From positions 5,704,001 to 5,768,000 of the forward strand of contig NZ_CP088022.1 of NCBI RefSeq assembly GCF_013373795.3: DNA of 64,000 nt, read 5' to 3'. The notes beneath the pieces were generated by a model, which saw only the letters and a program-made list of their open reading frames with translations, searched no databases and had not been told where the DNA came from. Below are positions 10,607-44,255 of the stretch, in pieces. The number at the start of each line of letters is the position of its first letter. Position 1 is the stretch's first letter. This stretch comes from Bradyrhizobium quebecense (GTDB lineage Bacteria; Pseudomonadota; Alphaproteobacteria; Rhizobiales; Xanthobacteraceae). The position numbers and the translations under genes were made by a program.

Positions 10607-11111
10607 CTACGACCGTAGCCATTTTGATCGGCATCAAATCCTTCTCCATCCGCGATGTGTGACAGAGGTTCTCGCGCGACTCTTCGCGCGGACTTGGAAT
10701 GGAGAACTTGATGAAAGTAAGAACCCTTCTGACGACGGCATCGCTGCTCACGCTCGCGACCTCGTTCAGTTCCGTCAGCATCTCGGTACAGGCTGCAGAT
10801 CTGGCGCCGGCACCGGTCTATTACAAATCGCCCCCGATCGCCCCCTTCAATCCGTGGATGATCCGCCTGCGCGTGCTCGGCGTCTTGCCGGACAGCGCAG
10901 GCAGCTCGGTCAACGTCGCGGGAGCCCCGCCGCTGTCGTCACCAAGCTCGGGCCTGTCGATCAGCGATCGAGTGATACCGGAGCTCGACATCACCTATTT
11001 CTTCACAAAAAACATTGCCGCCGAACTCATTCTCGGCGTGGCCAGCCATCACATCAGCGGTAGCGGCACGCTCAACGGGCTCGATGTTGGAAAGGCCTGG
11101 CTATTGCCTCC

Positions 11112-11117
11112 GACACT
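11112..11117. repeat. Target duplication of IS21 element, left copy
   Basis: GACACT, repeated at 13899-13904 directly outside the other terminus. Confidence 0.85.
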
Positions 11118-11386
11118 TGCGTATTCCACGGATAGTGATCAGCGATTGCAGGCGATCGTGATCACGGATTCCAGACGATGGTGATCACTTGCGGAGGCGA
11201 ACACGACTGACGTGTTTAATGTGTGCTGGAAATGGTCTTCCTGGTCAAGACAGACGGGAGGGTTTGGAGATCGGTCCGGCGGTCCATGGGAGGGCCCCGC
11301 GCGCGGCGCGGAGTGGCCCCACGAGCGACGCAGCGGCGCGCGCGGGAGGGACCTGTGGGCCGGTGGGGCGATCGGGCGTGCGGTGG

Positions 11387-12130
11387 TCACGCGTTTGTCC
11401 TATCGTCGGCCCGCCGACGCAGGCTGTCGCCCTTGAGCTCGATGCGGTGTGCATTGTGAATGATGCGATCCAAGATGGCATCGCCAAGCGTGGGATCGGC
11501 AATCACGTCATGCCATTGCGACACGGGGAGCTGACTTGTGATCAACAATGATCCCTTGTCGTAGCGATCATCGACGATCTCGAGTAGATCACGACGCTGG
11601 TCGGCGGTGAGCGGTTCGGGCCCCCAGTCGTCAAGGATGAGTAGATTGACGCGCTCCAGCGCCGCGATCAGACGGGCGAGACGGCCTTCGCCACGCGCCT
11701 GGGCGAGATCGGCGAACAAGCGGGGCACGCGCTTGTAGAGGACGGAGAAACCATCGCGGCATGCTCTGTTGCCGAGCGCGCAAGCCAGCCAGGACTTACC
11801 GGTGCCGGTCGGGCCGACAATCACCAGATGGTTGTGATCGCGGATCCATTGGCCGGAGGCGAGGGTCTGGAAGAGCGAACGGTCGAGACCGCGCGCGGTG
11901 CGATAGTCGACGTTCTCGATGGTGGCGGCCTGGCGGAGCTTGGCATTGCTCAAGCGGCGCGTGAGGCGACGGTTGTCGCGGGCGGTCACCTCGCGATCGA
12001 CGAGGAGGCCGAGCCAATCGGGGTGCGGCATCTCGGCGGCCTCGGGATTGTTCTGCAGTTCGATGACGGTATCGGCCATGGCAGTGAGGCCGAGTGCGCG
12101 CAGGCGTTCGACGGTCGGATGGATGAGCAC
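11387..12130 (-). CDS. istB: IS21 helper ATPase IstB
   Basis: A 247-residue AAA+ protein of the DnaC/IstB family. Walker A is VIVGPTGTGKSWLACALG, Walker B is VNLLILDDWGPEPL. It assists IstA in target selection. The start is a GTG at 12130 (VLIHPTVERLRALGL) preceded by AGGAG; upstream extension in the same frame is not expected. It lies 13 bp after istA. Confidence 0.93.
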   Translation of the reverse strand: MLIHPTVERLRALGLTAMADTVIELQNNPEAAEMPHPDWLGLLVDREVTARDNRRLTRRLSNAKLRQAATIENVDYRTARGLDRSLFQTLASGQWIRDHNHLVIVGPTGTGKSWLACALGNRACRDGFSVLYKRVPRLFADLAQARGEGRLARLIAALERVNLLILDDWGPEPLTADQRRDLLEIVDDRYDKGSLLITSQLPVSQWHDVIADPTLGDAILDRIIHNAHRIELKGDSLRRRADDRTNA

Positions 12131-12143
12131 GATGATCTCCTGA

Positions 12144-13682
12144 TCAGTTGTAGTAACCGCGGCCGCGGATGTTGGCGTGGAAGAGGATGGGTGCGTCCTG
12201 GGTCGGAGGCGCGGTTTTGTCGGTGCCGTTCTTGAGGATGGCAGCGACCGATTTGTAGGAACGGGCATTGAGCAAAAGGGCACGGGCGCAGGCGGCGTCG
12301 ACGCGCTCCTGGCCATAGCGTTTGACCAGCCCGAGAATGCCGATGGCCGAGCGGAAGCCCTGCTCCGGATGCGGCCGCGAGCGCAGGATGACGTCGATCA
12401 GGGTCTCGGCGTCGGGCCCCACCTTGGCGGCTTCGGAGCGGATGCGCTCGTGGGTCCAGTCGCGGTAGCGGCGATGCGAGCTTGGCATATGCTCGGGGAT
12501 CGTCGTCGGACGATGCGGCAGGGTGCTGCGCAGATGCGAGGCGACACGCTTGCCGCGCAGGAAAATCTCGACGGTTTTGAGGGTGATCCGTGCCTCGACC
12601 TCCTGATGCACGAGGTGGTGAGGCACGCTGTAATAATGTTTGGCAATCTCGATATGATAGTCGAGATTGACCCGGCAGCGCTTCCACTCGGCATACTCGT
12701 AGGGCTCATCCGGCAAGGGGGTCAGCGCCGGGCGATCGAGCTCCTCGAACAGGTCGCGCCGGCTTCGTCCCCAGCTCCGGAGAGGTCGATCGTTCAGCTC
12801 GACAAGGAGCGCGTAAATTGCCTCGTTGAGGGCGGCGAGCGAGAAGAAGCGGCGGTTGCGCAGGCGCGCCAGAATCCATCGCCCGACGATCTGGACCCCG
12901 ACTTCGACCTTGGCCTTGTCGCGCGGACGATACGGCCGCGCCGGCACAATGGCGGTGCGGTAATGGCGGGCGAGATCGGCATAGGTCCGGTTCACCATCG
13001 GCTCGTGAAAGCAGGCCCGGGTGATGCCGGCCTTCAGATTGTCGCTCACCGTCTGCCGGGCGGTGCCGCCGAAATAGGCAAAGGCGCGGACGTGCGAGCC
13101 GATCCAGTCCGGCAGGCTCTGGCTGAGGCTGGCCTCGGCGTAGGTGTAGTTCGAGGCACCGAGCACGGCGACGAAGATCTGCGCGCTGCGCACCTCGCCG
13201 GTGAGCCCGTCAACCACCTCCATGGTGTGGCCAGAATAGTCGACGAACAGCTTCTCGCCGGCGACATGAACCTGGCGCAGGGTCGGCTTGAGGCGGCTGG
13301 CCCACTCCCTGTAGCGTTCGCAGAGCCACGAATAGCTGAAACTGTCGGAGTGGGAGCCGCAATACTCCTCCCACAACAACATCAGCGTGACGTTCCTCCG
13401 CCGCAGCTCGCGATGCACGAGCGCCCAATCCGGCTGCGGCCGCTCGTCGCTGGGCAAATCGGACGGTGGCGGAAACAGCCGGTTCTCGAGCCGGACATCG
13501 TCACCGAGCTCCGGCGGCAACGGCCAGGTCAGGCCGGCCCGGCGCGCTAGGTTGAGGTACTTGTTGACCGTGCCCTGGGCCAGGCCGAGGCTGCGGGCAA
13601 CCGCGCGCTGCGACATGCCGACGCTGTAGTGCAGGCGTAAAACTTCGCGAATGTGGCGCATGGACAGTCTCTCTGTCGGCAT
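12144..13682 (-). CDS. istA: IS21 transposase IstA
   Basis: A 512-residue transposase. The N-terminus has an HTH segment (MSQRAVARSLGLAQGTVNKYL, from about residue 23), followed by the DDE core: FVDYSGHTMEVVDG with the first Asp, TVSDNLKAGI with the second Asp, and the Glu in the KVEVGVQIVGRWILARLRN region. The C-terminal beta-barrel domain includes HYYSVPHHLVHQEVEARI. Normal length; no frameshift. Confidence 0.95.
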   Translation of the reverse strand: MPTERLSMRHIREVLRLHYSVGMSQRAVARSLGLAQGTVNKYLNLARRAGLTWPLPPELGDDVRLENRLFPPPSDLPSDERPQPDWALVHRELRRRNVTLMLLWEEYCGSHSDSFSYSWLCERYREWASRLKPTLRQVHVAGEKLFVDYSGHTMEVVDGLTGEVRSAQIFVAVLGASNYTYAEASLSQSLPDWIGSHVRAFAYFGGTARQTVSDNLKAGITRACFHEPMVNRTYADLARHYRTAIVPARPYRPRDKAKVEVGVQIVGRWILARLRNRRFFSLAALNEAIYALLVELNDRPLRSWGRSRRDLFEELDRPALTPLPDEPYEYAEWKRCRVNLDYHIEIAKHYYSVPHHLVHQEVEARITLKTVEIFLRGKRVASHLRSTLPHRPTTIPEHMPSSHRRYRDWTHERIRSEAAKVGPDAETLIDVILRSRPHPEQGFRSAIGILGLVKRYGQERVDAACARALLLNARSYKSVAAILKNGTDKTAPPTQDAPILFHANIRGRGYYN

Positions 13683-13772
13683 CTCGATCCTCTGCTGTCG
13701 GGCAAAAGATCAAGCTACCTGGGTTGCAGACTGTCAGTGGTGTCCGGCTCGCTGTCCCCGATCATGATCCGC

Positions 13773-13898
13773 TGGAAATAGCGATCACGATCCTGTGGAA
13801 TTGGTGATCACGATCCCCTGGAAACGGTGATCACGATGCTCTGGAATGAGTGATCACGATGGCCTGGAATTGGTGATCACGATCGTCTGGAACGCGCA
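13773..13898. repeat. Six 23-bp-spaced repeats at the IS21 right end
   Basis: TGGAA recurs at 13773, 13796, 13819, 13842, 13865 and 13888, exactly every 23 bp, each (except the terminal one) followed by a [GA/TA]GTGATCACGAT-like core. Multiple terminal repeats serve as IstA binding sites in IS21 elements. The number is unusually high. Confidence 0.85.
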
Positions 13899-14235
13899 GA
13901 CACTGACGCTGCAATATCACTTCACCGATTTCGGGCCGCTCAAGCCCTATATCGGCGCGGGCATCAACTACACCGCATTCTTCAACCAATCAGCAGCCAA
14001 TACGCCGCTCGCGGGGCTTGCGGTGGCGGATGTACGCATCAGCAACCAGTTTGGCGCCGCGGTCCAATTCGGCTTCGATTACATGCTTGACCGTCACTGG
14101 GGCCTCAACTTCGACGTGAAGAAGTTGTGGCTGCGGCCGGATTACTCGGCGACCGTAAACAATGCGATAGTCGTCACTGGCCGCGCCAATATCGACCCAT
14201 GGCTCGTCAGCGGCGGAATCACGTACAAGTTCTGA

Positions 14236-14759
14236 CGATAGCACAAGCTCCAGGGAAGAGATCGGCTTGTTCAGATGCGAGCGAGACGGCGAGTTTAAGG
14301 TGCACCGTCTCGCCGGCGCCGGACTGCACGCGCAACAATGCTCGCTCTGTGAGCTACGAATTGATGGCATGAAGTGGCGGAACGCCTGCATCACTAATAG
14401 TGATCGACTAGATTCAGCTCCCTGCCTCCTTGCACGCTGCAGAGTGCCAGCCGCTTATCAAAGGCGGCAATTCAAATCGGTTGTCGCTCTGGGATAGACC
14501 GCGCTACAAAGGGGTGACGCTCGGGCCTCATCGGACTCGATCAAGCGCACTACTCTGACCGGTCCGTCTCTCACCGAACATTTTTGAATCCAAGGCCACA
14601 GCGACAAGGTCAATGGCCTCCTGTTGCGCACCTCCTTGGAGGCGTGAGGGCACCCAGTCACCTTAAGAACGATCGAACAGCTCAACGACCCCAGTCTTTG
14701 AACAGATAAGCCGTGCATTCCCGATAGCCCGGACCAAGCGGCGCTAAGCGAAGCCTCTA
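14236..14759. other. Spacer between ompW remnant and IS630 element
   Basis: About 520 bp with no gene recognised. Its last bases contain half of a hairpin that was split by the IS630 insertion. Confidence 0.4.
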
Positions 14760-15866
14760 GTGTCCTGAACCAGAAGTTCGCGACATCGGGTCGTGTTTTG
14801 CCGGGGGCATTGTACCGGCAGAAGCGTTCGATGGAAGCAAGGATGTCATCGGCAGATTTGGTCCATCGGAAACGGCGTTGTGTCGGCCGATGAACGAAGT
14901 GATGTCAGCCCTGAGAGCGGCGACGCTGCGATAGATGCCGCGCCTGATCTTCTTATCGGTGAGGAGCGCGAAGAAGCGCTCGACCTGGTTGAGCCATGAC
15001 GAACTGGTCGGGGTCAGGTGCACGTGCCAACGCGGCCGTTTAGCCAGCCATTTTTGGATCAAGGGGGTCTTGTGCGTGGCGTAATTGTCCATGACGAGAT
15101 GGACGTCCGGTTCACGCGGCACGGCAGCTTCGATCTCGTTGAGGAACTTGCGGAACTCAGCAGCACGGTGGCGTCCATAGCACTTGCCGATGACCCGTCC
15201 GCTAGCAATGTCGAGGGCGGCGAACAGCGATGTGGTGCCGTGCCTCGTGTAGTCATGGCTTCTTCGGGCCGGCTGGCCGGGACGCATCGGCAGCATCGGC
15301 TGACTGCAGTCCAGCGCCTGGATTTGGGACTTCTCATGCACACATAGAACGATGGCGTGCTCCGGTGGCGAGACGTAGAGGCCCACAACGTCGCGCACTT
15401 TGGCCACGAAGTTCGGATCGGTCGAGAGCTTGAACGTCTCCATCCGGTGCGGCTGGAGCCCAAAGGCCCGCCAGATGCGTTGCACCGTCGACACTGATAG
15501 GCCGCTGGCCTTCGCCATGTCGCGAGAACTCCAATGGGTGGCGTTCTCGGGGCAACTCTCCAACGTCCTCACGATCACGGCTTCGATGCGGGCATCGTCA
15601 ACCGTACGTGGCGCCCCGGAGCGCGGCTCGTCATGCAGCCCGTCCACGCGCCACTCCACAAAACGCCGCCGCCACTTGCCTACCGTCGATCGGTCCAGGC
15701 CCAGCTTGGCCGCGACTTCCTTGTTCTGACCGCCCTCCGCGCAGGTCAGCACGATCCGGGCTCTCAGAGCCAGCGCCTGCGCTGTCTTCCGCTGCATCGT
15801 CAGCGACTTCAGTTCGGCATGCTCTTCATCGCTCAATGTCAGGGGCGCAAGTTGCTGGACCGCCAT
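14757..15866 (-). pseudogene. IS630-family transposase, C-terminal frameshift
   Basis: The 369-codon frame starts [20 protein letters not shown]. It has an HTH part ([20 protein letters not shown]), then the DDE core with Asp in [13 protein letters not shown], Asp in [14 protein letters not shown] and Glu in [18 protein letters not shown]. After SFIGRHNA the expected tail ([16 protein letters not shown]...) is found only in another frame, so a one-base shift near 14880 replaces the last ~35 residues. All catalytic residues precede the shift, so partial activity is possible. Confidence 0.85.
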
Positions 15867-17790: not shown

Positions 17791-18265
17791 TTAATCGGGG
17801 TGGATCATAACATCAATGGTTTCGCCGCTGTCCTCGAATAGGTCGGCACGCCGATCATCCGCCAGCAGCTTGACGCCGCACAGGCAGACGTCACCATCTA
17901 TCACGGTGAGTGCGACCGGCTCGAGCGCTTGTCCGTTGCAGGGCCCATCGAATGCATACCCCAGTGTCGACCTCGAATCTCGCACCATGCCGTCCGCATC
18001 TGAGAATGGAGCGATCTGGAGAGAAAAACTCGCCGGAGCCGATGTTGAGCCAGGCACTGTCATGCGGACAACGGTTGACATACCCGAAATAATCGTTCCC
18101 GAAAGTGCGCACCACAATAATTAGAAGCGGCCGGCACTCGCCGCTAGCATCGATCCGCGACAGGCTAAAGCCCTTTGCGCCAGTCCGCTCGATAGCATCA
18201 GCGGGACATACGGCGAATACCTCGATCTGATCGCTCAGCAGGTTGCCCATTATACCTTCGCTCAT
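17791..18265 (-). pseudogene. Rieske-type [2Fe-2S] ferredoxin gene, frameshifted
   Basis: The first frame (from 18265) gives a Rieske domain with NRCPHDSAWLN and LRCGRHGARFEV, the CxH and CxxH cluster pairs. After TGVCI a one-base shift near 17950 moves the remaining GPCNGQALEPVALTVIDGD to another frame ending at 17791. The intact paralogue at 27622-28017 shows the uninterrupted version (GRCVEGPCKGGALTPIALTV). It overlaps the 73-residue gene upstream by ATGA. The C-terminal ~50 residues are lost in the translated product, though both cluster motifs remain. Confidence 0.75.
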
Positions 18266-18483
18266 TCCCGCCTCGTGGTTTCCTGCTTGAAGGTTTCGAT
18301 CGCGGTCCGCGTCAGTCGAAAAACACCACGACCACGAGCGATCGGGCGATAGCTTGAGCTGGCACGGGCGTTAAGGACATCAAACCATTGGTTCGGCGTG
18401 AGCTTCGCCGGGCGCTCGCTGATTTGCACCACCCTCCCGTTCGGAGCGAAGCGGACGTGAACAATGACCTGTTGCGAGTTCAC
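18262..18483 (-). CDS. Small nif-region protein of unknown function
   Basis: 73 residues: HVRFAPNGRVVQISERPAKL, then PNQWFDVLNARASSSYRPIA and GRGVFRLTR. The pattern looks like a conserved small protein found in nif clusters, but I cannot name the family with certainty. It overlaps the Rieske gene by ATGA (18262-18265), indicating coupled translation, and follows the DegT gene at 342 bp on the same strand. Confidence 0.6.
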   Translation of the reverse strand: MNSQQVIVHVRFAPNGRVVQISERPAKLTPNQWFDVLNARASSSYRPIARGRGVFRLTRTAIETFKQETTRRE

Positions 18484-18825: not shown

Positions 18826-20019
18826 TTAGTAGATCGCTGCACCCGCGCCCACATTGATCGACGCCTCTTTCGTGGTTTCGGCGATAAATTCGACCTTGTC
18901 GTTCGTGAGATGGGTGTGAAACGGCAGCGCCAGGGCGCGATCGGCGATCTTTTCCGCAACCGGGAAATCGCCCCGCCGATAGCCGAGATCAAAATAGTGA
19001 CGTTGCAAATGCAATGGATGGCTATAGGCGGCGGATTCAATCTTGGCGGCACGCAGATCATCGACAATGGCGTCACGGCCGGATCGCGTGAAGCGCATCC
19101 CTAGATGGACGAGATAGAGCATCCAGTTCACCTCGGTCACATGGGGGCCAACGTAAGGCGGTTTGATGCCTTCAAATGATTGCATATGCGCGTTGTAGAG
19201 CTGCTCGACCAACCGGCGACGCTCCAGGCTTTCGTTGAGACGCTTGAGCTGTGCCAACCCCAAAGCCGCGGTGAGATCGCTCATACGAGCCTGGTAAGGT
19301 GCGGTGGCACTGACGACAACGGAGGAGCGCTCGTCCAGTCGATGGGCGCAATACCGACGCAAGCTAACCGCGATATCGATATCATCGGTCACGACCATGG
19401 CGCCTTCGCCGCAACTTATGGCCAGGGGCTGAGCAAAGTCGAATACCGCCAGGTCGCCAAACCTGCCGACGAGCTCGCCCTTATAGCTCGATCCGATCGC
19501 CTCGGTGGAATCCTCCAAAAGCGGTAGCTGATCGCGTTGGGCAATCGCACGCAATTCCGACCATGGCGCCCGATGACCGTTGGAATTGCTGGCGACAATC
19601 GCCCGCGTGTTTGCCGTGATGCGTTCCTCGGCCTTTGCTGGGACCAATGTTGCCGACCAATAGTCGATGTCGGAAAATACCACCCGTACGCCTGCGAGAC
19701 TGATGGCATGGACCGTCTCGCGAAAGGAATAGGGCGAGGCGATGACTTCCTGCCCTGATTCGATCCCGAGCGCCTTGAGCGCAAGCAGGAGCCCGATGGT
19801 GTCGCTTGATACGGCAACGGCATATTTGCGGCCAAGATACGCTACGAAAGCGTGCTCGAACGCCTCAGTGGTCAGCCCATTGGAGATTTGCGGTGAACAT
19901 AGCAATGTTTCCACGGCAGAGAGCTCGGCTAAGGTGATATCGGGATCGGACAGTGGAATAAAGGATGGATTTGCCTCAACACTATCCGCGCTATCCAGCG
20001 GGGTGCGCTGCGAGTTCAA
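18826..20019 (-). CDS. DegT/DnrJ/EryC1/StrS-fold protein lacking the PLP lysine
   Basis: A 397-residue member of the sugar-aminotransferase superfamily. Fold motifs are present: ISNGLTTEAFEHAFVAYLG, YAVAVSSDTIGLLLALKALG, EVIASPYSFRETVHAI, and LPLLEDSTEAIGSSYKG with the Asp that normally contacts the PLP ring nitrogen. In the catalytic segment, where active enzymes read like SFHATK-x-x-TTGEGG, this protein reads FDFAQPLAISCGEGAM, putting Leu at the lysine position. It therefore cannot form the internal aldimine and may be a non-catalytic, regulatory or sugar/PMP-binding protein. It is the distal gene of the nifB-frxA-nifZ operon, 15 bp after the DUF6129 gene, which argues for a role tied to nitrogen fixation rather than surface sugar synthesis. 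Confidence 0.85.
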   Translation of the reverse strand: MNSQRTPLDSADSVEANPSFIPLSDPDITLAELSAVETLLCSPQISNGLTTEAFEHAFVAYLGRKYAVAVSSDTIGLLLALKALGIESGQEVIASPYSFRETVHAISLAGVRVVFSDIDYWSATLVPAKAEERITANTRAIVASNSNGHRAPWSELRAIAQRDQLPLLEDSTEAIGSSYKGELVGRFGDLAVFDFAQPLAISCGEGAMVVTDDIDIAVSLRRYCAHRLDERSSVVVSATAPYQARMSDLTAALGLAQLKRLNESLERRRLVEQLYNAHMQSFEGIKPPYVGPHVTEVNWMLYLVHLGMRFTRSGRDAIVDDLRAAKIESAAYSHPLHLQRHYFDLGYRRGDFPVAEKIADRALALPFHTHLTNDKVEFIAETTKEASINVGAGAAIY

Positions 20020-20034
20020 TGCAGCTCACCGCCC

Positions 20035-20295
20035 TCAATTCCTTTTCGCCAGTACAATGCCGGTCGCCCGTGTCGGATCGGCCGTAATCCGCACGCAGTG
20101 ATCCGAGCCATCTAGCAAATGCAGGTCGAAATGAGGAAACTGCCGGAACGGCTGGTCCGCTACATCCGACGCATCGCAACGTACCCAGGCAAGCTGCGGG
20201 AAGCGGCGCGGCAGCTCGACAAAGGAGCCAGTATCGGCGCCATCGTCCGCAAGCAGCTGCTCGATTTCGATCAATTCCTCCGCACTGAGCGCCAT
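20035..20295 (-). CDS. DUF6129-type small nif-cluster protein
   Basis: 86 residues with LSAEELIEIEQLLADD at the N-terminus and FDLHLLDGSDHCVRITADPTRATGIVLAKR at the end (read as motif segments HLLDGSDHCVRIT and ATGIVLA). This matches my recollection of the DUF6129 family, small proteins encoded in nif operons. No cofactor motif. It sits 15 bp before the DegT gene and 32 bp after the DUF3024 gene in the nifB operon. Confidence 0.65.
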   Translation of the reverse strand: MALSAEELIEIEQLLADDGADTGSFVELPRRFPQLAWVRCDASDVADQPFRQFPHFDLHLLDGSDHCVRITADPTRATGIVLAKRN

Positions 20296-20327: not shown

Positions 20328-20687
20328 TCATTGCCAGAACAGACGTTCCGGATCGGTGTTCAATTCGTCGATTGCTGAAGTCAGACGGTGGTTAAGGCTG
20401 TAGAACTCCCAGATTCCCTTTGCGTGGTTCTTGCAAAACAGCTTCCAGATCCCACCCACGGCATCATAAAGAATCAAGGCAACATCAATCAGACCGCCAT
20501 CCTTATCGATATTGCGCGAGCAACAGGCGCTCTCGATGAGATAGCCACCCCTCACCGGCGTCACGTTCGGTGAAACATACAGATAACGCTTGCGCGAACT
20601 CAAGCCGCGCTCGATCCGCTTGCGATCGAGTTCGTTCGGGTGAGGAATCAGCCCCGTCTTTACCTTCCTCATCAGCGCGGCATTCAT
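20328..20687 (-). CDS. DUF3024-like protein
   Basis: 119 residues. The C-terminal half (AVGGIWKLFCKNHAKGIWEF, then IDELNTDPERLFWQ) resembles DUF3024 proteins, in which a W-K-L-x-W strand pair precedes an acidic helix and a terminal aromatic. A patch with two adjacent cysteines (ESACCSRNID) is notable. Function unknown. Same strand and close spacing to nifZ2 (15 bp) and the DUF6129 gene. Confidence 0.5.
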   Translation of the reverse strand: MNAALMRKVKTGLIPHPNELDRKRIERGLSSRKRYLYVSPNVTPVRGGYLIESACCSRNIDKDGGLIDVALILYDAVGGIWKLFCKNHAKGIWEFYSLNHRLTSAIDELNTDPERLFWQ

Positions 20688-20702: not shown

Positions 20703-20943
20703 TCAAAGCACTGTGATCTCTTCTTCTAGACAGCCGATGAGCAGGCGTTCACCGAAATCGACAGTATTTATCGGCACGTTCGCTTGGTTATGGATAGCCA
20801 CCCTGATGATCTCGCCGGTCGCTCCGGCGCCGAGCAAGCACTCCTCGGGCTCCGTATTGGGACAAAGAGCCGTCGTTGATGAGGTCGACGACGGCTTTAA
20901 CGCGCTGGCCCCAGCGATACCTCGAAAAGCGGAACTCACTCAT
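20703..20943 (-). pseudogene. nifZ: Second NifZ-domain gene, frameshifted
   Basis: ATG 20943 overlaps the stop of nifZ (ATGA) and gives MSEFRFSRYRWGQRVKAVVD, a NifZ-type start. In NDGSL the frame shifts near 20861-20866 (an extra base), and the other frame continues PNTEPEECLLGAGATGEIIR and GERLLIGCLEEEI to 20703, the expected remainder. Without the shift it would be a ~79-residue NifZ-like protein. It may be a true inactivation compensated by the intact nifZ, or a sequencing error. Confidence 0.75.
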
Positions 20944-21260
20944 GACACAGCCTCTTCCGGCAATGGCAGATCATCGGTCTCCTCGCACGTGTCCACCGAC
21001 TCAAGCTCCTTGCGCTTCATGCCAACTCGGTAGCCCGTTTCCAGAAACTCGACCCCGTAAATGAAGAATTGCTGCAGGAACGTGCCGATCGAGACGACGT
21101 AACCCACCTCTCCCTTCGTGACCAGAATGTCGCCAACCTGCTTGCCGGGATAGGTGCCATCATTGCGGATGGTGCGATTGGATCGTACCTTTTCGCCAAA
21201 GCTGAAGACAGGCGGCCCGCTGAGCTCGACGACGTCGCTGTCGCGAACGATGTTGCTCAT
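20940..21260 (-). CDS. nifZ: NifZ, MoFe protein maturation factor
   Basis: 106 residues: FSFGEKVRSNRTIRNDGTYPG, KQVGDILVTKGEVGYVVSIG and FFIYGVEFLETGYRVGMKRKEL are typical of NifZ. NifZ helps form the second P-cluster in MoFe protein. The start at 21260 (MSNIVRDSDVV) overlaps the preceding stop by ATGA and has GGAGAGG upstream. It is translationally coupled on both sides. Confidence 0.95.
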   Translation of the reverse strand: MSNIVRDSDVVELSGPPVFSFGEKVRSNRTIRNDGTYPGKQVGDILVTKGEVGYVVSIGTFLQQFFIYGVEFLETGYRVGMKRKELESVDTCEETDDLPLPEEAVS

Positions 21261-21793
21261 GCGCCTCTCCCAAGCGGACATGCAGGCATGCCCGAGCCAT
21301 CGCAGGCGAGGTCCCGCATCACTTCGCCCTCACCTCCGGCGCGATTTGTCAATTCAATATCTGAGATGCAGCTCGCCGCTTCTAGGTAAACCTGCCGATC
21401 AGGGCCGTGCCGTAGAGCAGTTGGCGCCTCTGGCAAGGGCGATCGCGCGATCTCGAACTCCACCGAGGCATCTGGGCCGCTCACTACGGCTGGCAACCAC
21501 TGATAGGGAACATCGCGCGCCACCATGTCGCAGAACTCGACGTCCGTATCACTCATCAGCTGACCGAGCAGCTGCGGCGCGATGCGGCGCGCCTCGATCA
21601 TCAATGCGGCGGCGCGGTCCGAGGTGAGCGCACGCGCTTCGACTACATGTTGGTTTGCAACCTCGTCAAGATGATCGAACAGCCGTGCCTGCCGCAGCCG
21701 AGCCTCGGTCGCGCCGGGGAGATCATCGCCGGTCGGCGTGGACAAGATCAGCGCTCTCTGGCTGCCGGACGGCGGGTTGGCTGTTAAGTTCAT
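21257..21793 (-). CDS. Unknown protein between frxA and nifZ
   Basis: 178 residues, no recognised domain. A predicted helical centre (ARALTSDRAAALMIEARRIA, LLGQLMSDTDVEFCDMVARD) is followed by a C-terminal segment with two cysteines (ACDGSGMPACPLG). It overlaps nifZ and the upstream ORF by ATGA, so it is embedded in the nifB operon and likely co-translated. Its function is probably linked to nitrogenase maturation, but this is only positional inference. Confidence 0.7.
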   Translation of the reverse strand: MNLTANPPSGSQRALILSTPTGDDLPGATEARLRQARLFDHLDEVANQHVVEARALTSDRAAALMIEARRIAPQLLGQLMSDTDVEFCDMVARDVPYQWLPAVVSGPDASVEFEIARSPLPEAPTALRHGPDRQVYLEAASCISDIELTNRAGGEGEVMRDLACDGSGMPACPLGRGA

Positions 21794-22116
21794 CGGCAGC
21801 TGTGCTCTTGGGTGTGCGCCGTCACGCTCCGCCGCGAAGCGCCTGGTCCAACCAATGATGGACTGGCGTGCGCAGCAGCATCAGTCACATCGACGATGAC
21901 AGCACCGCCTGGAAGGCGGCTGCCGGCGTCGAGAAACGTCGTTGGAGCGCTGCACGGGACGAATTGTCCACAGCGTTCTTTCTGCTCGCGGGCAGCGGCC
22001 AATCCAGAGCAGCCGCCGTTTCTGAGAAAGGCCCGAACCTCGGCGCCTACGGCGCCGCTAACGCGCAGTACGACGCTTTGGACGCTTTCAGCAGCAGCTC
22101 TTGGCATTCTGATCAT
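21790..22116 (-). CDS. Possible small ORF downstream of frxA
   Basis: 108 codons starting MIRMPRAAAESVQSVVLRVS, with GTEV-free, alanine-rich composition and three cysteines in the middle. No recognised family. It starts 11 bp after the frxA stop and ends in an ATGA overlap with the next gene, which is the only support. It may instead be non-coding. Confidence 0.35.
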   Translation of the reverse strand: MIRMPRAAAESVQSVVLRVSGAVGAEVRAFLRNGGCSGLAAAREQKERCGQFVPCSAPTTFLDAGSRLPGGAVIVDVTDAAAHASPSLVGPGASRRSVTAHTQEHSCR

Positions 22117-22127
22117 GGGCTAATTCT

Positions 22128-22352
22128 TTAGGATGGCGCCTGGTAACGCGGCAAGGAGGTGTCAATGACGCAGGTGCCGTCGACGGGACAAGCCGCGACA
22201 CATTGTGGCTCATCGAAATGACCGATGCATTCGGTGCATTTCGCCGGTTCAATGACGAAGCGCCCCGCGCTCTCCGAGATCGCAACATTTGGGCACAACG
22301 GTTCGCAGGCTGAGCAGCTCGTACACTGCGAGGCAATGATCTTGAATGGCAC
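22128..22352 (-). CDS. frxA: 2[4Fe-4S] ferredoxin downstream of nifB
   Basis: A 74-residue bacterial-type ferredoxin. Cluster motifs are [20 protein letters not shown] and [20 protein letters not shown]; the second has the long C-x2-C-x8-C-x3-C spacing typical of FdxN/FrxA. The best start is GTG 22352 ([10 protein letters not shown]) after AAAGGGGG. NifB-linked ferredoxins support NifB-co synthesis by delivering electrons for radical-SAM chemistry. It begins 12 bp after the nifB stop. Confidence 0.92.
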
Positions 22353-22363
22353 ATACGCCCCCT

Positions 22364-23923
22364 TTACCCCGCAGAGATCAGGGACCCACACCGAATGTCG
22401 GCGTCACCTCGCTGGGCATGCTGGATTTCTCCGCGTTTTACCTTCTCGAGATAGGACCTGAACCAAGCGATCGCCGACTTCTCTATGAACTCATGCGCGT
22501 ATCGATCGACCGGTTCGATTCCGGCGCTGATCAGATTGCTCTTCGGGCAACCGCCGATCTTGGCCACGAACACCGCATGGCAGTCATTTACGCTTCGGAT
22601 GATGGTCGAAAGCCTCTCCCCCTCGCCATAGCCGCCCTGGCAGTAGACATCCACGCGCCGGTGGCCGACGAATTTGGCGCCGGATGTGGAAATTTCGTAC
22701 ACCTGAAACTCTTTTGCATGTCCAAAGTGCTCGTTGATCAGCCCCGAGCCTTTGGTTGCAACCGCGACCAGAACGGTGATTTCGCTCATCTCGCCGGCGA
22801 ACTCCGCGAGGCCCGCTCGGCTGGCCGCGACTTTGGCGGCACGCTCAGCCTCTACCTTTTCTTGATAAGCTTTGCGCATCTCGGGGTCATATTTGACATC
22901 CATTTTCATGACTCGGTCGATGTTGAACTCGCTTCCGCGATCCGCTCCGACCAGACCCACCGCATCGGCGCGGCACTGACGGCAATGCCGCATCATGTTT
23001 ACCCCTCCCTCACAAGCATCCTGCAGTGCCTTCAGTGCCTGAGCCGTCGGACCTCGTTGACCGTTGAGGCCGAATACTGTGCCGTACTCGGGCGCCGAGA
23101 TCAGCGGCATGATATTGTGAAGGAAGGCTCCGCGCGACTTCACCGCCTTGTTGACCTCGACAAGGTGATGGTCATTGATATGCGGGATCATTACCGAGTT
23201 GACCTTGCATAGGATACCCCGCTCGCTAAGCATCTCGAGACCCTGTAGCTGACGATCGGTGAGTATCCTTGCCGCGTCGATGCCAACGTAACGCCTGTGG
23301 CTGAAGAAGATCCACGGATAGATCTTTGCGCCGATTTCAGGATCGATCGTGTTAATGGTGATGGTGACGTGCTCGATCTTGGACTTGGCGATGGTGTCAA
23401 CATAGTCCGGCAGGGCCAATCCGTTGGTCGACAGACACAGCTTGATGTCGGGAGCCGCCTTGGCGACCAGGTCGAACGTCTTGAATGTTTTTTCTGGATT
23501 GGCCAACGGATCGCCGGGACCAGCGATGCCAAGCACAGTCGTCTGCGGAATGATGGTCGCGACCGCGAGCACTTTTTTCACCGCCTGCTCGGGGGTAAGC
23601 TTCTCGCTCACCACGCCCGGACGCGATTCATTGGCGCAATCATATTTGCGGTTGCAGTAGTTGCACTGGATGTTGCAGGCCGGAGCCACCGCGACATGCA
23701 TACGGGCGTAGTGATGATGTGCCCCTTCGCTGTAGCAGGGATGCTTCTTCACCTTTTCCCAAATCTCGGCCGGCAGTTCGCCGTGGGCCGCCCGTGAGCG
23801 GCAGCTCGCCTGGCCTGTGTTGACCGACGTGCCGCAGCCCCTGTGCTCGGCGGTGGGCCGCATCATCTTGTCCAATGAACCTTCGACATATCTGCCGTGC
23901 CCAACGACCGCGTTCATTTTCAT
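22364..23923 (-). CDS. nifB: NifB, FeMo-co core biosynthesis radical SAM protein
   Basis: A 519-residue NifB. The radical-SAM motif [14 protein letters not shown] lies at about residues 84-97. [13 protein letters not shown] precedes it and [18 protein letters not shown] follows. The C-terminal NifX-like domain (from about 400) includes [20 protein letters not shown] and [15 protein letters not shown]. NifB fuses two [4Fe-4S] units and inserts carbide to form NifB-co. It heads an operon running through nifZ to DegT, behind the -24/-12 promoter at 23986. Confidence 0.97.
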
Positions 23924-23985: not shown

Positions 23986-24001
23986 AGCAACTCACATGCC
24001 A
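23986..24001 (-). promoter_or_regulatory. sigma-54 promoter of nifB operon
   Basis: On the minus strand TGGCATGTGAGTTGCT, a near-perfect -24/-12 element 63 bp upstream of nifB. An imperfect NifA site (TGT-N10-GCA) lies at 24085-24100, one mismatch from TGT-N10-ACA. Confidence 0.9.
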
Positions 24002-24677
24002 TAGCGGAAACGGTGACGTTGCAGCCCTACTTAAACAGTCAGCGGTAATGATCGATATTGATACTAGAATAGCAACGAAGCGCATGTTGGAAATGCGGCA
24101 GGTACGTCGTGATTCAGACACAGAGATCCGTGGATGGTGCATTCATACTCGCGCTAGGCGCCGGGATCCTTGCTCTATCTGCATGGTTTTGCGCGCTGCT
24201 GCCGGCCACAAATGGGTCGATACTTCTGGCGATCCGACGTCACAGCGCCGTTAATTGATGAGCATTATCCCCAACGCGCGAGCGAGCCAAATCGGTGTCA
24301 GGCCTTGCTTGAGCTGAACACGGCGCTCATTGCATTGAGAAGACGCTCGGATCGACGATTGCATCGTGGTATCGGCAGGAACGCCTGATGATCTTCGCCG
24401 CATTGCTTCGCAATAGCGATAGTTGAAGCGAGAGCAAGAAAGCTCCGTTCGGTCCGCCTTTCCTTGATGGCGTCTGGCAACTGAACCACGATGCTGCCAT
24501 AGCGAGCAGCCGCCAAGAGCTTCCTGATCTCTGGCTGCAATATGTCGAGGCACTGATCGGAATCGAGATCGAGACACCGAAGCCCGGCAACGATACTATC
24601 GACCTCCTGGCCAAGCAGGTCAGCGAAACGATATTAGCAATTCTCTCCAATGCCGATGTAGAAGATTGGGCTCATGT
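24002..24677. other. nifB-nifT spacer, no assigned gene
   Basis: About 680 bp. A plus-strand stretch near 24530-24690 reads coherently (IGIEIETPKPGNDTIDLLAK) and a minus-strand 80-codon ORF lies at 24298-24540, but neither is recognised; possibly remnants. Confidence 0.4.
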
Positions 24678-24902
24678 TCATGGATCTTTCCCGTTCTCGC
24701 CCCGTTTTTTGGCATTGATTGTGATCGGCAATGGTGTGTCGCTCGCCATCTCGGGTAAATCGAGCACCCAGCCATTAGCTATCTTGATCCAGCCGCCCCA
24801 GAGCGACTCGTACTCAGATTCCACGATCGGCTCTTCGAGATCCTTTTTTGGCACGTAGATCGACAGGCCCGCGTCCGACGAGCGGCGGATCATGATTTTC
24901 AC
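24678..24902 (-). CDS. nifT: NifT/FixU
   Basis: 74 residues: MIRRSSDAGLSIYVPKKDLE, WGGWIKIANGWVLDLPEM and DTPLPITINAKKR are the NifT/FixU signature. The role is not firmly known; it is dispensable in some diazotrophs. The start is GTG 24902 (VKIMIRR), overlapping the nifS stop by GTGA, so it is coupled to nifS. Confidence 0.92.
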   Translation of the reverse strand: MKIMIRRSSDAGLSIYVPKKDLEEPIVESEYESLWGGWIKIANGWVLDLPEMASDTPLPITINAKKRGENGKDP

Positions 24903-26092
24903 AAGCGCAACTCCCTCGACTGTGACGCATAGCTGGGCGGAGCGCCAGACTCCCGCGAGGTGGCACGCAAGCGAGCAACAATGTCTGACAGAGCGCACAC
25001 GACCTCGTCAACCTCCGCGACGGTGGTTTCACGAGAGAGAGAAAAGCGCACCGCGCCGCGCATCCTCCACGCCGGCACCTGCATGGCGCGCAGAACGTGC
25101 GACGGCACCATTGAGCCGGAGCTGCAGGCTGATCCGAGCGACACGGCAATGCCCGCACGATTGAGATGATGGACGACTGCTTCGCCTTCGAGATGATCGA
25201 AAGCGATATTGGCTGTGTTCGCTAACCGGTTGTTGACATCGCCGAGCGCAAAGCATTCGCCATTATGTAAGATCCCCTGCTCCAGACGGTCGCGCAATGC
25301 ACCAATGCGAACGCGCTCCGGCTCGAGCCGCTCCACAGCAAGCTCCGCAGCCCTTCCAAGACCGACGATGCCGGGAATATTTTCCGTTCCGCCGCGGCGC
25401 CGCCTTTCCTGTGATCCGCCCCAGATCAGGGGTCGGAATTTTGTCCCTTTGCGCAGGTAGAGCGCGCCCATTCCTTTGGGACCGTGCAATTTGTGTGCGG
25501 ACAGCGACAACATATCGATCGCACTGTCCCTTAGGTCGACGCGCAGCTTGCCTATGGCCTGGACCGCATCGGTATGGAACAGTGCGCCCGCCTCACGTGC
25601 CAAGCCGGCTAAAAACTCCACGGGAAAAATGGTGCCGGTCTCGTTGTTCGCCCACATAATCGAGGCGATCGCTGTGCGTGGCCCGAGCGCGCAGCGAAAG
25701 GCCTCGACGTCAAGCCAGCCGTGGGCATCTACGGGTATGATATGCGTCTTGACACCTCTTGTCGCCAGTTGCTCGACCAGCGCAAGCACGGCGGAATGCT
25801 CAACCGAGGTCGTGACAATCTCGTCGCGACCATCTTGGGTGGCAAGCGCAGAAAGAATGGCGGCATTATTGGCCTCGGTTCCACCGGAGGTAAAAACGAT
25901 TTCATGATCGTAGGCATTCCCTAGCAAAGCCTGCAAGCTACGCCGCGCCTGCTTCAGCGCGGCCGCGGCCTCACCGCCAAAGGCGTGGGCCGAGGAGGCA
26001 TTTCCGAACTGCTCGGTAAAGAACGGCAACATGGCTTGCACGACGGATGGATCGGTCCGCGTCGTCGCATTGTTGTCTAGATAAACCGGCAT
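24899..26092 (-). CDS. nifS: NifS cysteine desulfurase
   Basis: A 397-residue type I cysteine desulfurase. Motifs: VYLDNNATTRTDPSV at the start, SLSAHKLHGPKGMGAL with the PLP lysine, and LGSACSSGSMVPSHVLRAM with the catalytic cysteine. It mobilises sulfur from cysteine for nitrogenase Fe-S clusters. The start at 26092 (MPVYLDNN) has GGGG eight bases upstream; a TTG at 26107 is a less likely alternative. It is third in iscN-(NifU-like)-nifS-nifT. Confidence 0.96.
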   Translation of the reverse strand: MPVYLDNNATTRTDPSVVQAMLPFFTEQFGNASSAHAFGGEAAAALKQARRSLQALLGNAYDHEIVFTSGGTEANNAAILSALATQDGRDEIVTTSVEHSAVLALVEQLATRGVKTHIIPVDAHGWLDVEAFRCALGPRTAIASIMWANNETGTIFPVEFLAGLAREAGALFHTDAVQAIGKLRVDLRDSAIDMLSLSAHKLHGPKGMGALYLRKGTKFRPLIWGGSQERRRRGGTENIPGIVGLGRAAELAVERLEPERVRIGALRDRLEQGILHNGECFALGDVNNRLANTANIAFDHLEGEAVVHHLNRAGIAVSLGSACSSGSMVPSHVLRAMQVPAWRMRGAVRFSLSRETTVAEVDEVVCALSDIVARLRATSRESGAPPSYASQSRELRL

Positions 26093-27621: not shown

Positions 27622-28017
27622 TCATTCGTTGGGAAGCGCATCGTCTTCGACAAGAGGCATACCGACGACACAGATATCACCATCCAGAACCGTCAACGCA
27701 ATCGGCGTGAGCGCGCCACCCTTACATGGACCTTCGACGCACCGTCCCGTGGCGAGCTCGAAGGTCGATCCGTGCTTGCCGCACATCAGCCGGATGCCGT
27801 ATGGATCCAGGAATTCGTTCCAGTTCCAGTCCAGATTGACGCTGTTGTGCGGGCATTTATTGGCATAACCAAACACCTGCTTGCCCCACCGCACTACAAC
27901 GATAGACCACGGCCGGTGACCGCCCTCGTCATCGACGACCAGCAGATGGAAACCCATGGCCCGGCGGCTTGGAATGTCGTTAATGCCACAAATCGCATAG
28001 ATTGCATCTGGCTGCAT
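27622..28017 (-). CDS. Rieske-type [2Fe-2S] ferredoxin
   Basis: A 131-residue single-domain Rieske protein. Cluster ligands: ANKCPHNSVNLDW (CxH) and RLMCGKHGSTFELATG (CxxH), followed by CKGGALTPIALTVLDGDICV. It resembles the small ferredoxins of dioxygenases and nif clusters. It is the intact paralogue of the frameshifted gene at 17791-18265. No dioxygenase subunit lies beside it, so an electron-transfer role in nitrogen fixation is more likely than aromatic oxidation. Confidence 0.88.
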   Translation of the reverse strand: MQPDAIYAICGINDIPSRRAMGFHLLVVDDEGGHRPWSIVVVRWGKQVFGYANKCPHNSVNLDWNWNEFLDPYGIRLMCGKHGSTFELATGRCVEGPCKGGALTPIALTVLDGDICVVGMPLVEDDALPNE

Positions 28018-28662: not shown

Positions 28663-29514
28663 CTACTCCATGCGCAATCCTTCGAGAGCTTGCTCCAAGT
28701 AGAATGACGGATCATCATCTGAAGAGGCCGCTTCGGCACTTTCGACACTTGCTTCAGAAGCGGTGTCACTATCCTCGACCTTAGTAAGATACTTCGTAGG
28801 TTTGTCTACTCGCTGCCACTCGTTGCTCTCGTTTTTCGTCCACACTTCGGGATGCTGGTTAGGATCAAGCGCCCAATAATTACGCCCCATGTGAACAAAA
28901 CCCATTTCGGCCAGACGAGGTTCCATGCCCTCCAAGCCAGGACGTGACAAGACCAAGGGATGGTCGCCGTCCTGTCGCAGTTGATGCTCCAGCAGAATAT
29001 CGCCCGCGTTCTCGACCAACGGATGAGTAACCCGAAGGTCAACCACGGACGTGATATCATTGCGTCCAAACTGTTGCCGAAACTGCTCCCCCTTGATTCG
29101 AGCCGGCCCACCTGCTCTTAAAAGCCCGACAGTTTCGTCACCCAACTGATAGCTGTAGAATCGTGCTGGCTTGCTTGGATCATCGTAAGTGTGGAGGTAG
29201 CTTCCAGCAACCATTCCTGCGCGCCGAGCCTTCCCGGACACGAAATCCGAGTACTCTTCTGGGTTACTGGCGATGTGCCTGATGTCACCGCCCAAAAATC
29301 TCCTCACTCCCTCCGTGAAGGAAGATCGATCGATCTCTATGATCGGCGGATCGGAAGCCAGAGAGTATGGCGTCGTTGTCACCGACGACGACGCACCGGG
29401 CTCCATGCCGGCAACTGTGTCCGCAAATCGCGGGCTCTCTCCCTCATCTCCAGACTCATCAACGTGGCTGGCGCTTCCAGACTGGCTGGACGATCCGACG
29501 ATTCTGCCATACAT
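28663..29514 (-). CDS. nopP: Type III effector NopP
   Basis: 283 residues starting MYGRIVGSSSQSGSASHVDE: a Ser-rich N-terminus of the kind used as type III secretion signal. The body (GVRRFLGGDIRHIASNPEEY, RFYSYQLGDETVGLLRAGGP, FVHMGRNYWALDPNQHPEVW) matches my knowledge of rhizobial NopP, including its location between nifX and nifS in soybean bradyrhizobia. NopP is secreted into plant cells and can trigger host incompatibility (Rj2 soybean). A tts-box lies 82 bp upstream, so TtsI rather than NifA should control it. Base composition is visibly more AT-rich than the nif genes. Confidence 0.88.
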   Translation of the reverse strand: MYGRIVGSSSQSGSASHVDESGDEGESPRFADTVAGMEPGASSSVTTTPYSLASDPPIIEIDRSSFTEGVRRFLGGDIRHIASNPEEYSDFVSGKARRAGMVAGSYLHTYDDPSKPARFYSYQLGDETVGLLRAGGPARIKGEQFRQQFGRNDITSVVDLRVTHPLVENAGDILLEHQLRQDGDHPLVLSRPGLEGMEPRLAEMGFVHMGRNYWALDPNQHPEVWTKNESNEWQRVDKPTKYLTKVEDSDTASEASVESAEAASSDDDPSFYLEQALEGLRME

Positions 29515-39164: not shown

Positions 39165-40412
39165 TCACGAGAACAGCTGTCGCGCCTTGATAAGTGCCCG
39201 CACGAGCGTATCAATCTCTTCACTTGTGTTGTAAAGTGCGAAAGACGCACGGCACGTAGCCAGCACACCCAAGCGCTCGAGCAGCGGCATCGCGCAATGG
39301 CCACCCGCCCGCACTGCAACTCCGGCGCGGTCGACGACCGTGGCAATGTCATGTACATGCGCGCCTTTCATATCAAAGGAGATGATCGGCCCCTTTTCGG
39401 CCGGCGTCCCGATGATTCGTACGGCGTTGATGTCCCCTAGCTTCTCATTTGCGTAGGCGAGCAGCGCGTTCTCGTGCTTGCGGATCTGTTCTTTGCCTAT
39501 CGAATTGATGTAATCTAAAGCCGCCCCCAAACCGATCGCCTCGACAATCGGCGGCGTCCCCGCCTCGAACCGGTGCGGCGGTTCACCATAGATGACGCCG
39601 GCACGCGAGACCTGACGGATCATCTCGCCGCCACCATTGAAGGGCGGCATTGACGAAAGATGCTCTGACTTGCCGTAAAGCACGCCGATCCCTGTCGGAC
39701 CATAGAGTTTATGGCCTGTCATTACGTAGAAATCGCAATCGATGTCGCAGACGTCGACGGTCAAATGGACACATCCTTGCGAGCCGTCGACCAGTACGGG
39801 AATACCCCGTGCATGTGCGATCCTCACTACGTCTTTCACTGGCAAAATGGTACCCAGCACGTTCGACATCTGAGTGATCGCTACCATCTTAGTGCGAGGG
39901 GTCAAGAGCCGCTCAAATGCATCGAGCAGGAAATTGCCGTCATCATCAACCGGCGCCCACTTGATGACTGCGCCGAGCCGTTCTCTTAAAAAATGCCACG
40001 GCACAATGTTGGAGTGGTGTTCCATAATCGACAGAACGATCTCGTCGCCGGCGCTGACCCGTTCACGGCCGAAGGTCTGGGCGACCAGATTGATGGCCTC
40101 CGTGGCGCTGCGGGTGAAGACGATCTCTTCGTTCAGATGTGCGTTCACAAACCGCGCCACCTTGGTACGGGCGCCCTCATACGCCTCCGTCGCCGCATTC
40201 GCCAGATAGTGCAGGCCGCGATGTACGTTGGCGTATTCGCTGGAGTATACATGCATCATGCGGTCAAGAACCGCATTCGGCTTTTGCGCGGATGCGGCGT
40301 TATCAAGGTACACAAGCGGCTTGTCGTACACCGTCATGGACAGCGCAGGAAAGTCCGCGCGCAGACGGCTGACCTGGTAACTACCGTTGCCTATCGCGGG
40401 GTGCACACTCAT
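39165..40412 (-). CDS. sufS: SufS cysteine desulfurase (type II)
   Basis: 415 residues. LVYLDNAASAQKPNAVLDRM at the start, FVMTGHKLYGPTGIGVLYGK-type PLP lysine segment (FYVMTGHKLYGPTGIG), RAGGHCAMPLLERLG and the catalytic cysteine in ATCRASFALYNTSEEI. It supplies sulfur to the SufBCD scaffold. It overlaps sufD by ATGA. No sufE follows, so its sulfur-transfer partner must be encoded elsewhere. Confidence 0.95.
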   Translation of the reverse strand: MSVHPAIGNGSYQVSRLRADFPALSMTVYDKPLVYLDNAASAQKPNAVLDRMMHVYSSEYANVHRGLHYLANAATEAYEGARTKVARFVNAHLNEEIVFTRSATEAINLVAQTFGRERVSAGDEIVLSIMEHHSNIVPWHFLRERLGAVIKWAPVDDDGNFLLDAFERLLTPRTKMVAITQMSNVLGTILPVKDVVRIAHARGIPVLVDGSQGCVHLTVDVCDIDCDFYVMTGHKLYGPTGIGVLYGKSEHLSSMPPFNGGGEMIRQVSRAGVIYGEPPHRFEAGTPPIVEAIGLGAALDYINSIGKEQIRKHENALLAYANEKLGDINAVRIIGTPAEKGPIISFDMKGAHVHDIATVVDRAGVAVRAGGHCAMPLLERLGVLATCRASFALYNTSEEIDTLVRALIKARQLFS

Positions 40413-41731: not shown

Positions 41732-41750
41732 CAGGAAATCTCTTGAGAGG

Positions 41751-42503
41751 TCAGGCCGCACCTTCGAATTGAGCGTAGCCACAAGCCTCGAGCTCCAGCG
41801 CGAGTTCTCTGCCGCCGCGCTTCCTTACCCGCCCTTTGGACATCACATGCACAAAATCCGGCGTTATATAGTCGAGAAGCCGCCGATAGTGGGTGATCAC
41901 GATCATCGCCCGTTCCGGCGAACGCAGAGCGTTGATACTGTTGGAGACGATGCGCAGCGCGTCGATATCGAGGCCGGAATCTATCTCATCCAAGATGCAC
42001 AGGCTCGACTCGAATAGCGCCATCTGCAAAATCTCGTTGCGCTTTTTCTCGCCGCCGGAAAATCCGACATTGAAGCCGCGCTTCAGCATGCCTTGTGGGA
42101 TGTTGAGCGACTTGGCTATCTCGCCGGCCCTTTTCAGAAAATCGGGCGTGGAGAATTCCTCTTGCCCGCGCGCTTTACGCTGAGCGTTCAACGCCGTACG
42201 CAGGAAGTTCATGGTGGTCACACCGGGAATTTCGACCGGATACTGAAACGCAAGAAATATTCCCTTGCCAGCGCGCTCCTCCGGTTCCATCGCGAGAAGA
42301 TCTTCATCCTTGAACAGGATTTGGCCTGCACTCACTTGATACCCGGGCTTGCCGGAAATAACGTGGCTGAGCGTGGTCTTTCCGGAGCCGTTCGGCCCCA
42401 TGATCGCGTGTACCTCACCCGCGTTGACCGTAAGATCGAACCCGCGAAGAATTTCGCGCTCGTCCATGCCGGCATGCAAATCTCGAACTTCGAGTAGCGC
42501 CAT
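41751..42503 (-). CDS. sufC: SufC, Fe-S assembly ATPase
   Basis: A 250-residue ABC-type ATPase. Walker A is IMGPNGSGKTTLSHVISG, the signature VGFSGGEKKRNEILQM, and Walker B with D-loop is LCILDEIDSGLDIDALRIV. It drives conformational changes in SufBD. It lies between sufB and sufD with short gaps. Confidence 0.97.
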   Translation of the reverse strand: MALLEVRDLHAGMDEREILRGFDLTVNAGEVHAIMGPNGSGKTTLSHVISGKPGYQVSAGQILFKDEDLLAMEPEERAGKGIFLAFQYPVEIPGVTTMNFLRTALNAQRKARGQEEFSTPDFLKRAGEIAKSLNIPQGMLKRGFNVGFSGGEKKRNEILQMALFESSLCILDEIDSGLDIDALRIVSNSINALRSPERAMIVITHYRRLLDYITPDFVHVMSKGRVRKRGGRELALELEACGYAQFEGAA

Positions 42504-42571
42504 TCTGATCTATCTCCTGAAATGCATCATCCCGGGTGAGCCGCACTCGGGAGGTCCCGCGGGACGGTTGG

Positions 42572-44068: not shown

Positions 44069-44255
44069 TGCCTGCTCCGCTCGCGCAAAGACAACTCCAA
44101 CCAGTTCCGGCGCACCCTCTCCGAACTGATCCCACAAGTTAGGACCAACTCGGGGCCAGCGCGTAAGAGAATCGGTCGACGAAGCCGGTAGGCTGCCGCT
44201 CTCAGTGGTGTCTTCATTCTGTTTCGCGCCGGGGCCCCACTCATCAGCTAATTCC

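Follow-up and report, generated by a model that had tools for sequence, protein, structure and literature searches.

What does a protein with the fold of the DegT sugar aminotransferases do in a nitrogen fixation (nif) operon when the catalytic lysine of that family is missing? The question is raised by an open reading frame (ORF) in a 64,000-nucleotide stretch of the Bradyrhizobium quebecense genome (contig NZ_CP088022.1, positions 5,704,001 to 5,768,000; the whole stretch analysed is called the window here). A sequence-only reading of the window had proposed a DegT homologue repurposed for nitrogen fixation. We conclude that the lysine-less protein probably has an unrecognised job in this process, and propose, with a probability of roughly 0.6, that it belongs to a single nif-dedicated DegT-fold clade in which the site for pyridoxal 5'-phosphate (PLP) was rebuilt rather than merely broken. 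Many diazotrophs conserve this gene in their nifB-nifZ operon, and databases label its product an aminotransferase although the catalytic residue is missing in every member examined. Efforts to transfer nitrogenase assembly to new hosts draw on a gene list derived from a few model diazotrophs.

The former cofactor site

18826..20019, minus strand: nif-linked DegT-fold protein without the lysine; ORF of 397 amino acids from a TTG start, with Leu199, Asp194, Asp170 and the C-terminal tail NVGAGAAIY (residues 389-397)

The ORF was confirmed as 397 codons from the TTG. Its product scored 280.7 bits against the Pfam family DegT_DnrJ_EryC1 (PF01041; cut-off 19.8); family score and fold both agree with the sugar-aminotransferase fold first assigned to it. 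The window protein reached no model cut-off of the named DegT subfamilies of NCBIfam (PseC, ArnB, LegC-type, DesI, WecE, RfbH and others); the top match among the nine listed was PseC, with 213.7 bits against a cut-off of 423.5. Alignment with the Caulobacter perosamine synthetase placed Leu199 of FAQPLAISCGEG opposite the Lys of FFGNKIITTGEGG, and Asp170 at the position of the PLP-ring Asp, both as the sequence-only reading had stated. Asp194 occupies the position of the Ser in the FSFH motif, the residue that binds the PLP phosphate in relatives.

In our computational analysis, every member examined lacked the Schiff-base Lys, had an acid in place of the phosphate Ser, and carried new invariant residues and an added, invariant nine-residue C-terminal tail. 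Three protein searches were made, with the window protein (3034 hits), the divergent locus L155 (6514 hits; best-named hits Azospirillum) and a Paraburkholderia plasmid copy (5547 hits). The best 120 of each gave 360 relatives, chosen by score and not a random sample, whose named members are alpha- and betaproteobacteria; the remaining hits include ordinary aminotransferases. Position 199 is Ser in 172 of the 360, Gly in 102, Ala in 33, Leu in 27, Val in 21, Phe in two, and Ile, Met and Cys in one each, and never Lys. Conservation of the Leu, which had been named as support for repurposing, was therefore not found, and the shared trait is the absence of Lys. Nor did any of six further locus proteins, including the gammaproteobacterial plasmid copy L175, have Lys199. 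By comparison, 14 DegT proteins from outside the clade, taken from the same genome samples (one, L233, has an internal stop), all have the Schiff-base Lys; 13 have the Ser and none has the C-terminal tail. Given 0/360 on one side and 14/14 on the other, the absence of Lys is not due to chance. Nif-linked homologues retaining the Lys, which would have pointed to simple inactivation of the window copy, were thus not encountered among the 360.

The phosphate-Ser position holds Asp in 358 and Glu in two of the 360 proteins. Asp170, the residue that holds the pyridine nitrogen of PLP in the aminotransferases, is kept in 360/360 and in 14/14 outgroups, and is invariant in the clade together with Glu173, Asn145, His149, Trp153, Tyr120, Trp121, Pro198 and Arg309. 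Asn145, Trp153, Glu173, Asp194, Pro198 and His149 align at or beside cofactor-site positions of relatives. Altogether, conservation among the 360 proteins reaches 99% or more at 65 of 389 positions. The tail, Asn389-x-Gly-Ala-Gly-x-Ala-Ile-Tyr397 with Ala, Ser or Thr at 394, is present in 359, and in one Gly391 is replaced by Ser. The G-x-N motif (241-243), a neighbour-subunit element in relatives, became P-x-Q in most members. The loss of the Lys, the change from Ser to Asp or Glu and this last replacement argue, at the level of sequence, against the normal mode of PLP binding. The replacement residues show the degree of conservation typical of catalytic residues, and we therefore take the pocket to be in use.

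Other candidate residues were considered. No Lys occurs at any of positions 190-206 in the 360 relatives; Lys129, Lys286 and Lys384 are conserved (in at least 95%) but lie outside this segment, so that another Lys reaching in to replace the lost one, as the sequence-only reading had allowed for, seems unlikely. A Lys of the perosamine synthetase near Lys286 sits one column off and is not aligned with it. Cys203 was rejected as a special site: it is Cys in 173/360 only, and ArnB has Cys there too.

Phylogeny and association with nif genes

In a tree of 57 rows the nif proteins stand on a single branch (100/100, length 2.6); the row L081 is labelled as outside the clade because of its low score but is actually a frameshifted member. 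In whole-genome samples the A1 profile separated the clade (at least 487 bits) from the Lys-bearing rest (at most 280 bits). The phylum sample (284 genomes) gave nine matches, six of them clade members (at least 490 bits) and three Lys-bearing. Of these six, L236 and L237 had not turned up before; each is part of a nifB operon.

A scan of one genome per species returned 544 relatives, the best 80 of which were examined. These loci come mostly from Bradyrhizobium, and also from Xanthobacter, Azorhizobium, Nitrospirillum, Niveispirillum, Methylocapsa, Acidiphilium, Paracraurococcus, Parvibaculum and Roseibium. In all 80, nifZ, a second NifZ-domain gene, a DUF3024 gene and a DUF6129-type gene lie upstream of the DegT gene in the same order. 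Of these loci, 76 also have nifB and fdxN; in the other four (L078, L079, L102 and L105) the contig does not reach that far. Four plasmid records carry the gene, and the two examined, from Methylococcus (Gammaproteobacteria) and Paraburkholderia (Betaproteobacteria), both show the order nifB-...-nifZ-nifZ-...-nifT-small gene-DegT. The nif-type protein was found in 7 of 249 genomes of the order sample, where 42 have nifB, and in 4 of 385 of the class sample, where 13 have nifB; all seven and all four are nifB-positive. The linkage to nif genes first suggested by the window alone therefore extends to every locus whose surroundings were examined, and in the two samples the protein occurs only in nifB-positive genomes. 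A degenerate DNA pattern matched 31 of the 385 genomes of the class sample; of the 30 loci that this yielded, the one in the window is alone in encoding the motif.

A tie between DegT and nifV, taken as a mark of fixation outside the plant, was tried and found uninformative: nifV exceeded the cut-off in 8 of 10 genomes with the nif-type DegT (G456 has a partial match below it and G000 none over it), and also in 38 of 43 DegT-less nifB genomes.

From the place of the gene among nifB, fdxN, nifZ, nifT and iscA-type genes we infer, as the best reading, a protein with a PLP-independent role in binding or assembly during nitrogenase maturation. The constant neighbourhood would also fit a structural partner of the DUF6129-type protein. 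In such a scaffold the conserved surface and tail would serve only to hold other proteins, and the former active site would no longer matter. The DUF6129-type gene is upstream in 80/80 loci and accompanies DegT in all 11 DegT-bearing loci of a nifB-centred set (51 further nifB loci and the two plasmids), and the tail is invariant yet poorly ordered in the monomer model (predicted local distance difference test score, pLDDT, of about 61). On the other hand, DegT of L237 lies in a nif operon adjacent to nifHDKEN with no DUF6129 match, DUF6129 occurs without DegT in L177, L183, L187 and L197, and the many invariant residues at or beside cofactor-site positions go beyond the needs of a scaffold. 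We regard this explanation as improbable.

Selection and the adjacent ferredoxin

Purifying selection maintains the DegT-fold gene in nifB-nifZ operons across alpha-, beta- and gammaproteobacteria. The median ratio of nonsynonymous to synonymous substitution rates (dN/dS) was 0.136 over 136 pairs of 17 Bradyrhizobium sequences, and 78 of the 80 loci have an uninterrupted reading frame across the domain. These results bear on the possibility that an inactivated aminotransferase was left beside the nif genes without function. A remnant could explain the two broken loci (L037 and L081), the damage to the window copy described below, and the locus L177 (genome G361), where the DUF6129 gene continues into a short segment similar by eye to DegT around residues 272-289 and no DegT was found. 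It does not fit the open frames, a dN/dS of about 0.14 or the 65 highly conserved positions, and the gain of an invariant tail is unexpected for a remnant. A functionless leftover is accordingly very unlikely; conservation and dN/dS led us to reject a simple pseudogene for the family, and simple inactivation may apply to the window copy alone. Because the nif linkage is very strong, and with Lys absent throughout, the proposal of a repurposed nif protein is favoured over simple inactivation of the family, although the conserved Leu invoked for it was not found.

Behind DegT, an intact 2Fe-2S ferredoxin gene (at least 100 bits within 1.5 kb) is present in all 27 non-Bradyrhizobium loci and in 15 of 51 Bradyrhizobium loci, with L037 and L081 left out of the 80; the other 36 Bradyrhizobium loci lack it or have weak or split matches. 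A tie between DegT and this ferredoxin was set aside, since DegT is still constrained where the ferredoxin is lost: dN/dS was 0.135 without an intact ferredoxin (521 pairs) against 0.182 with one (80 pairs). Bradyrhizobium sp. CCBAU 51765 has two nif clusters with DegT, L036 without the ferredoxin and L100 with it intact, and offers a natural comparison of the two cluster types.

ColD and DdhC (E1) are DegT-fold sugar dehydratases that depend on pyridoxamine 5'-phosphate (PMP) and lack the Schiff-base Lys, which is replaced by His; E1 works with an iron-sulphur reductase. By analogy with these 3-dehydratases, the nif protein might be a PMP or PLP enzyme without the lysine, to which the adjacent ferredoxin would donate electrons. 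The retained PLP-ring Asp, SGT motif and aromatic position, the distribution of the intact ferredoxin, and the joint absence of DegT and ferredoxin from L183, L187 and L197, where the flanking genes are kept, are in line with such an enzyme. However, none of the 360 proteins has His at 199, the phosphate Ser is now an acid, the Azospirillum-type loci L220 and L227 have no ferredoxin match within 1.5 kb, and selection on DegT is similar where the ferredoxin is lost. We consider this enzyme rather unlikely. It and the DUF6129 scaffold are the chief rivals of a role in nitrogenase maturation.

Proposed role

For the maturation protein we envisage that PLP would not be used as in a transaminase, and that the protein, co-expressed with NifB, NifZ and the DUF6129-type protein, may bind or assemble components during nitrogenase maturation. 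The acid-rich pocket could accommodate a ligand that is cationic or contains metal, or else a residue of a partner, and the flexible tail could dock to another Nif protein. In its most specific form, which we put forward tentatively, this would be an unnamed maturation factor with an acidic site (Asp170, Glu173 and Asp194, with Asn145 and His149) for a metal, a cofactor intermediate or a Nif side chain, docking through its C-terminal tail, with the DUF6129-type protein and, in many lineages, the 2Fe-2S ferredoxin as partners. Its importance would be limited to some diazotrophs. If it is a maturation factor, a part of nitrogenase assembly has been overlooked; if a cofactor is still bound without the lysine, a well-known fold would hold new chemistry.

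Several observations weigh against a rebuilt, nif-dedicated site. The protein is optional: 35 of the 42 nifB-positive genomes of the order sample lack it, and it is therefore not required for nitrogen fixation in general. The order and class samples share the window's own genome, and their genomes are not phylogenetically independent. DUF6129 persists without DegT at the four loci named above. Beyond the 360 proteins there are exceptions, namely Gln149 in L153, and Gln199 and a change of the SGT Thr to Asn in L232. Long branches come together where the clade begins, as the tree program warned. Finally, Asp170 (360/360), the SGT phosphate motif and the aromatic residue at 99 are largely retained, so that non-covalent binding of PLP or PMP by the family is possible on sequence grounds.

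The window copy and its operon

The frame from the homologous start of the window copy is broken, and the region around the gene contains the following features.

18262..18483, minus strand: small conserved protein downstream of DegT
19991..20029, minus strand: homologous GTG start (20029) and its frame, with TAG after 12 codons (by-eye comparison with relatives)
20035..20295, minus strand: DUF6129-type small protein directly upstream of DegT (AlphaFold2 model, pLDDT 84)
20328..20687, minus strand: DUF3024 protein
20703..20939, minus strand: second NifZ-domain protein
20940..21281, minus strand: NifZ
21305..21808, minus strand: partial TPR match (21808-21599) and LRV-FeS match without the FeS N-terminus (21601-21305), read as remnants
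22128..22391, minus strand: FdxN-type 2[4Fe-4S] ferredoxin
22364..23923, minus strand: nifB (TIGR01290, 647.7 bits; cut-off 343.65)
23986..24001, minus strand: sigma-54 -24/-12-like element TGGCATGTGAGTTGCT
24260..24654, minus strand: SIR2-domain protein of related nif operons, partial matches in pieces, read as fragments
24684..24911, minus strand: nifT

Judged by eye against the DNA of L035, L037, L039 and L110 and protein P0001, the window has one extra nucleotide, which makes the frame from the homologous GTG stop after 12 codons; a TTG at 20019, behind GGTGAG, reopens the DegT frame. The 397-residue ORF would thus need this alternative TTG for its start, unless the extra base is an error of the assembly. 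In a set of 17 sequences, the window copy also deviates alone at 12 columns that are invariant in the rest, the highest number of the set (L067 has 10), and it has Asp73 where the 360 relatives have Gly, Ala or Ser. Partial matches alone remain in the window of the TPR, LRV-FeS and SIR2 genes of related nif operons, no ferredoxin match was found behind DegT in the window, and no nifV match above the cut-off in its genome. In its lack of the ferredoxin the window's cluster is of the same type as L036. The copy looks damaged or decaying and, since in addition its Leu is not conserved, represents its family poorly. The DegT-fold gene may be in the course of loss in some bradyrhizobia, with the window copy as one such decaying copy.

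The small gene at 20035-20295 lies 15 bp ahead of the ORF, as first described. Its relatives share conserved CDASD and DHC motifs with it; two orthologues gave weak matches to Pfam DUF6129 (20.0 and 17.8 bits; cut-off 23.6), while the window copy had no Pfam match at E 0.001 and its model no PDB fold match at E<=0.001. Downstream of DegT lies the small conserved protein at 18262..18483; the intact 2Fe-2S ferredoxin gene that follows DegT in many other lineages had no match here. The sigma-54-driven operon first described has a candidate promoter: TGGCATGTGAGTTGCT, at 24001 on the minus strand and 78 bp ahead of nifB, resembles the -24/-12 consensus. No exact TGT-N10-ACA NifA site was found close upstream.

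Elsewhere in the window, a Rieske-type protein lies on each side of the nifB/nifS region (17891-18265, by Pfam, and 27622-28017, by eye), the two being similar to each other, and sufB, sufC, sufD and sufS adjoin nifDKEN (39165-44269). By eye, the ORF at 28663-29514 resembles a rhizobial type III effector (NopP-like), an IS630-type insertion element lies at 14757-15866, and an outer-membrane-protein-like ORF (10699-14235) is apparently split by an IS21-type element (11387-13682).

Comparison with known systems

The gene has been listed before. In 2011, a study comparing Aeschynomene symbionts tabulated genes of Nod-independent bradyrhizobia and placed BRADO5411 of Bradyrhizobium ORS278 under nitrogen fixation as 'putative Aminotransferase, DegT/DnrJ/EryC1/StrS family' (PMC3899966). 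Judged by name and gene order, this is the same gene: it adjoins the 2Fe-2S ferredoxin BRADO5410 and lies near NifZ-domain, LRV and TPR genes. The copy of the closely related BTAi1 is our L108. BRADO5414, 5416, 5418 and 5424, nif-related genes of the same operon, are described there as shared with Azorhizobium but not found in USDA110, S. meliloti or M. loti. The accessible passages of that paper call BRADO5411 an aminotransferase, with no mention of the Lys loss and no test of function. No functional description of the nif-linked DegT gene was found in accessible passages of the open-access literature, and those of PMC8305402, PMC9769520, PMC3912193, PMC3538637, PMC7643969 and PMC2443382 do not mention a DegT gene in a nif operon.

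Compared with GDP-perosamine synthase and ArnB-type enzymes (PDB 3dr4, 3bn1 and 1mdx; PF01041), the nif family has lost their Lys in all 360 proteins and replaced their Ser with an acid. Their G-x-N element (241-243) is mostly P-x-Q here, while Asn145, Trp153, Tyr120, Trp121 and the C-terminal tail are new, and the genes lie beside nif genes wherever their surroundings were examined. The nif-family profile also matches ColD and DdhC (E1), with E values of about 1e-39 to 1e-45. In those enzymes the Lys became His, whereas the nif clade has no His at 199 in 360 proteins and has lost the phosphate Ser as well.
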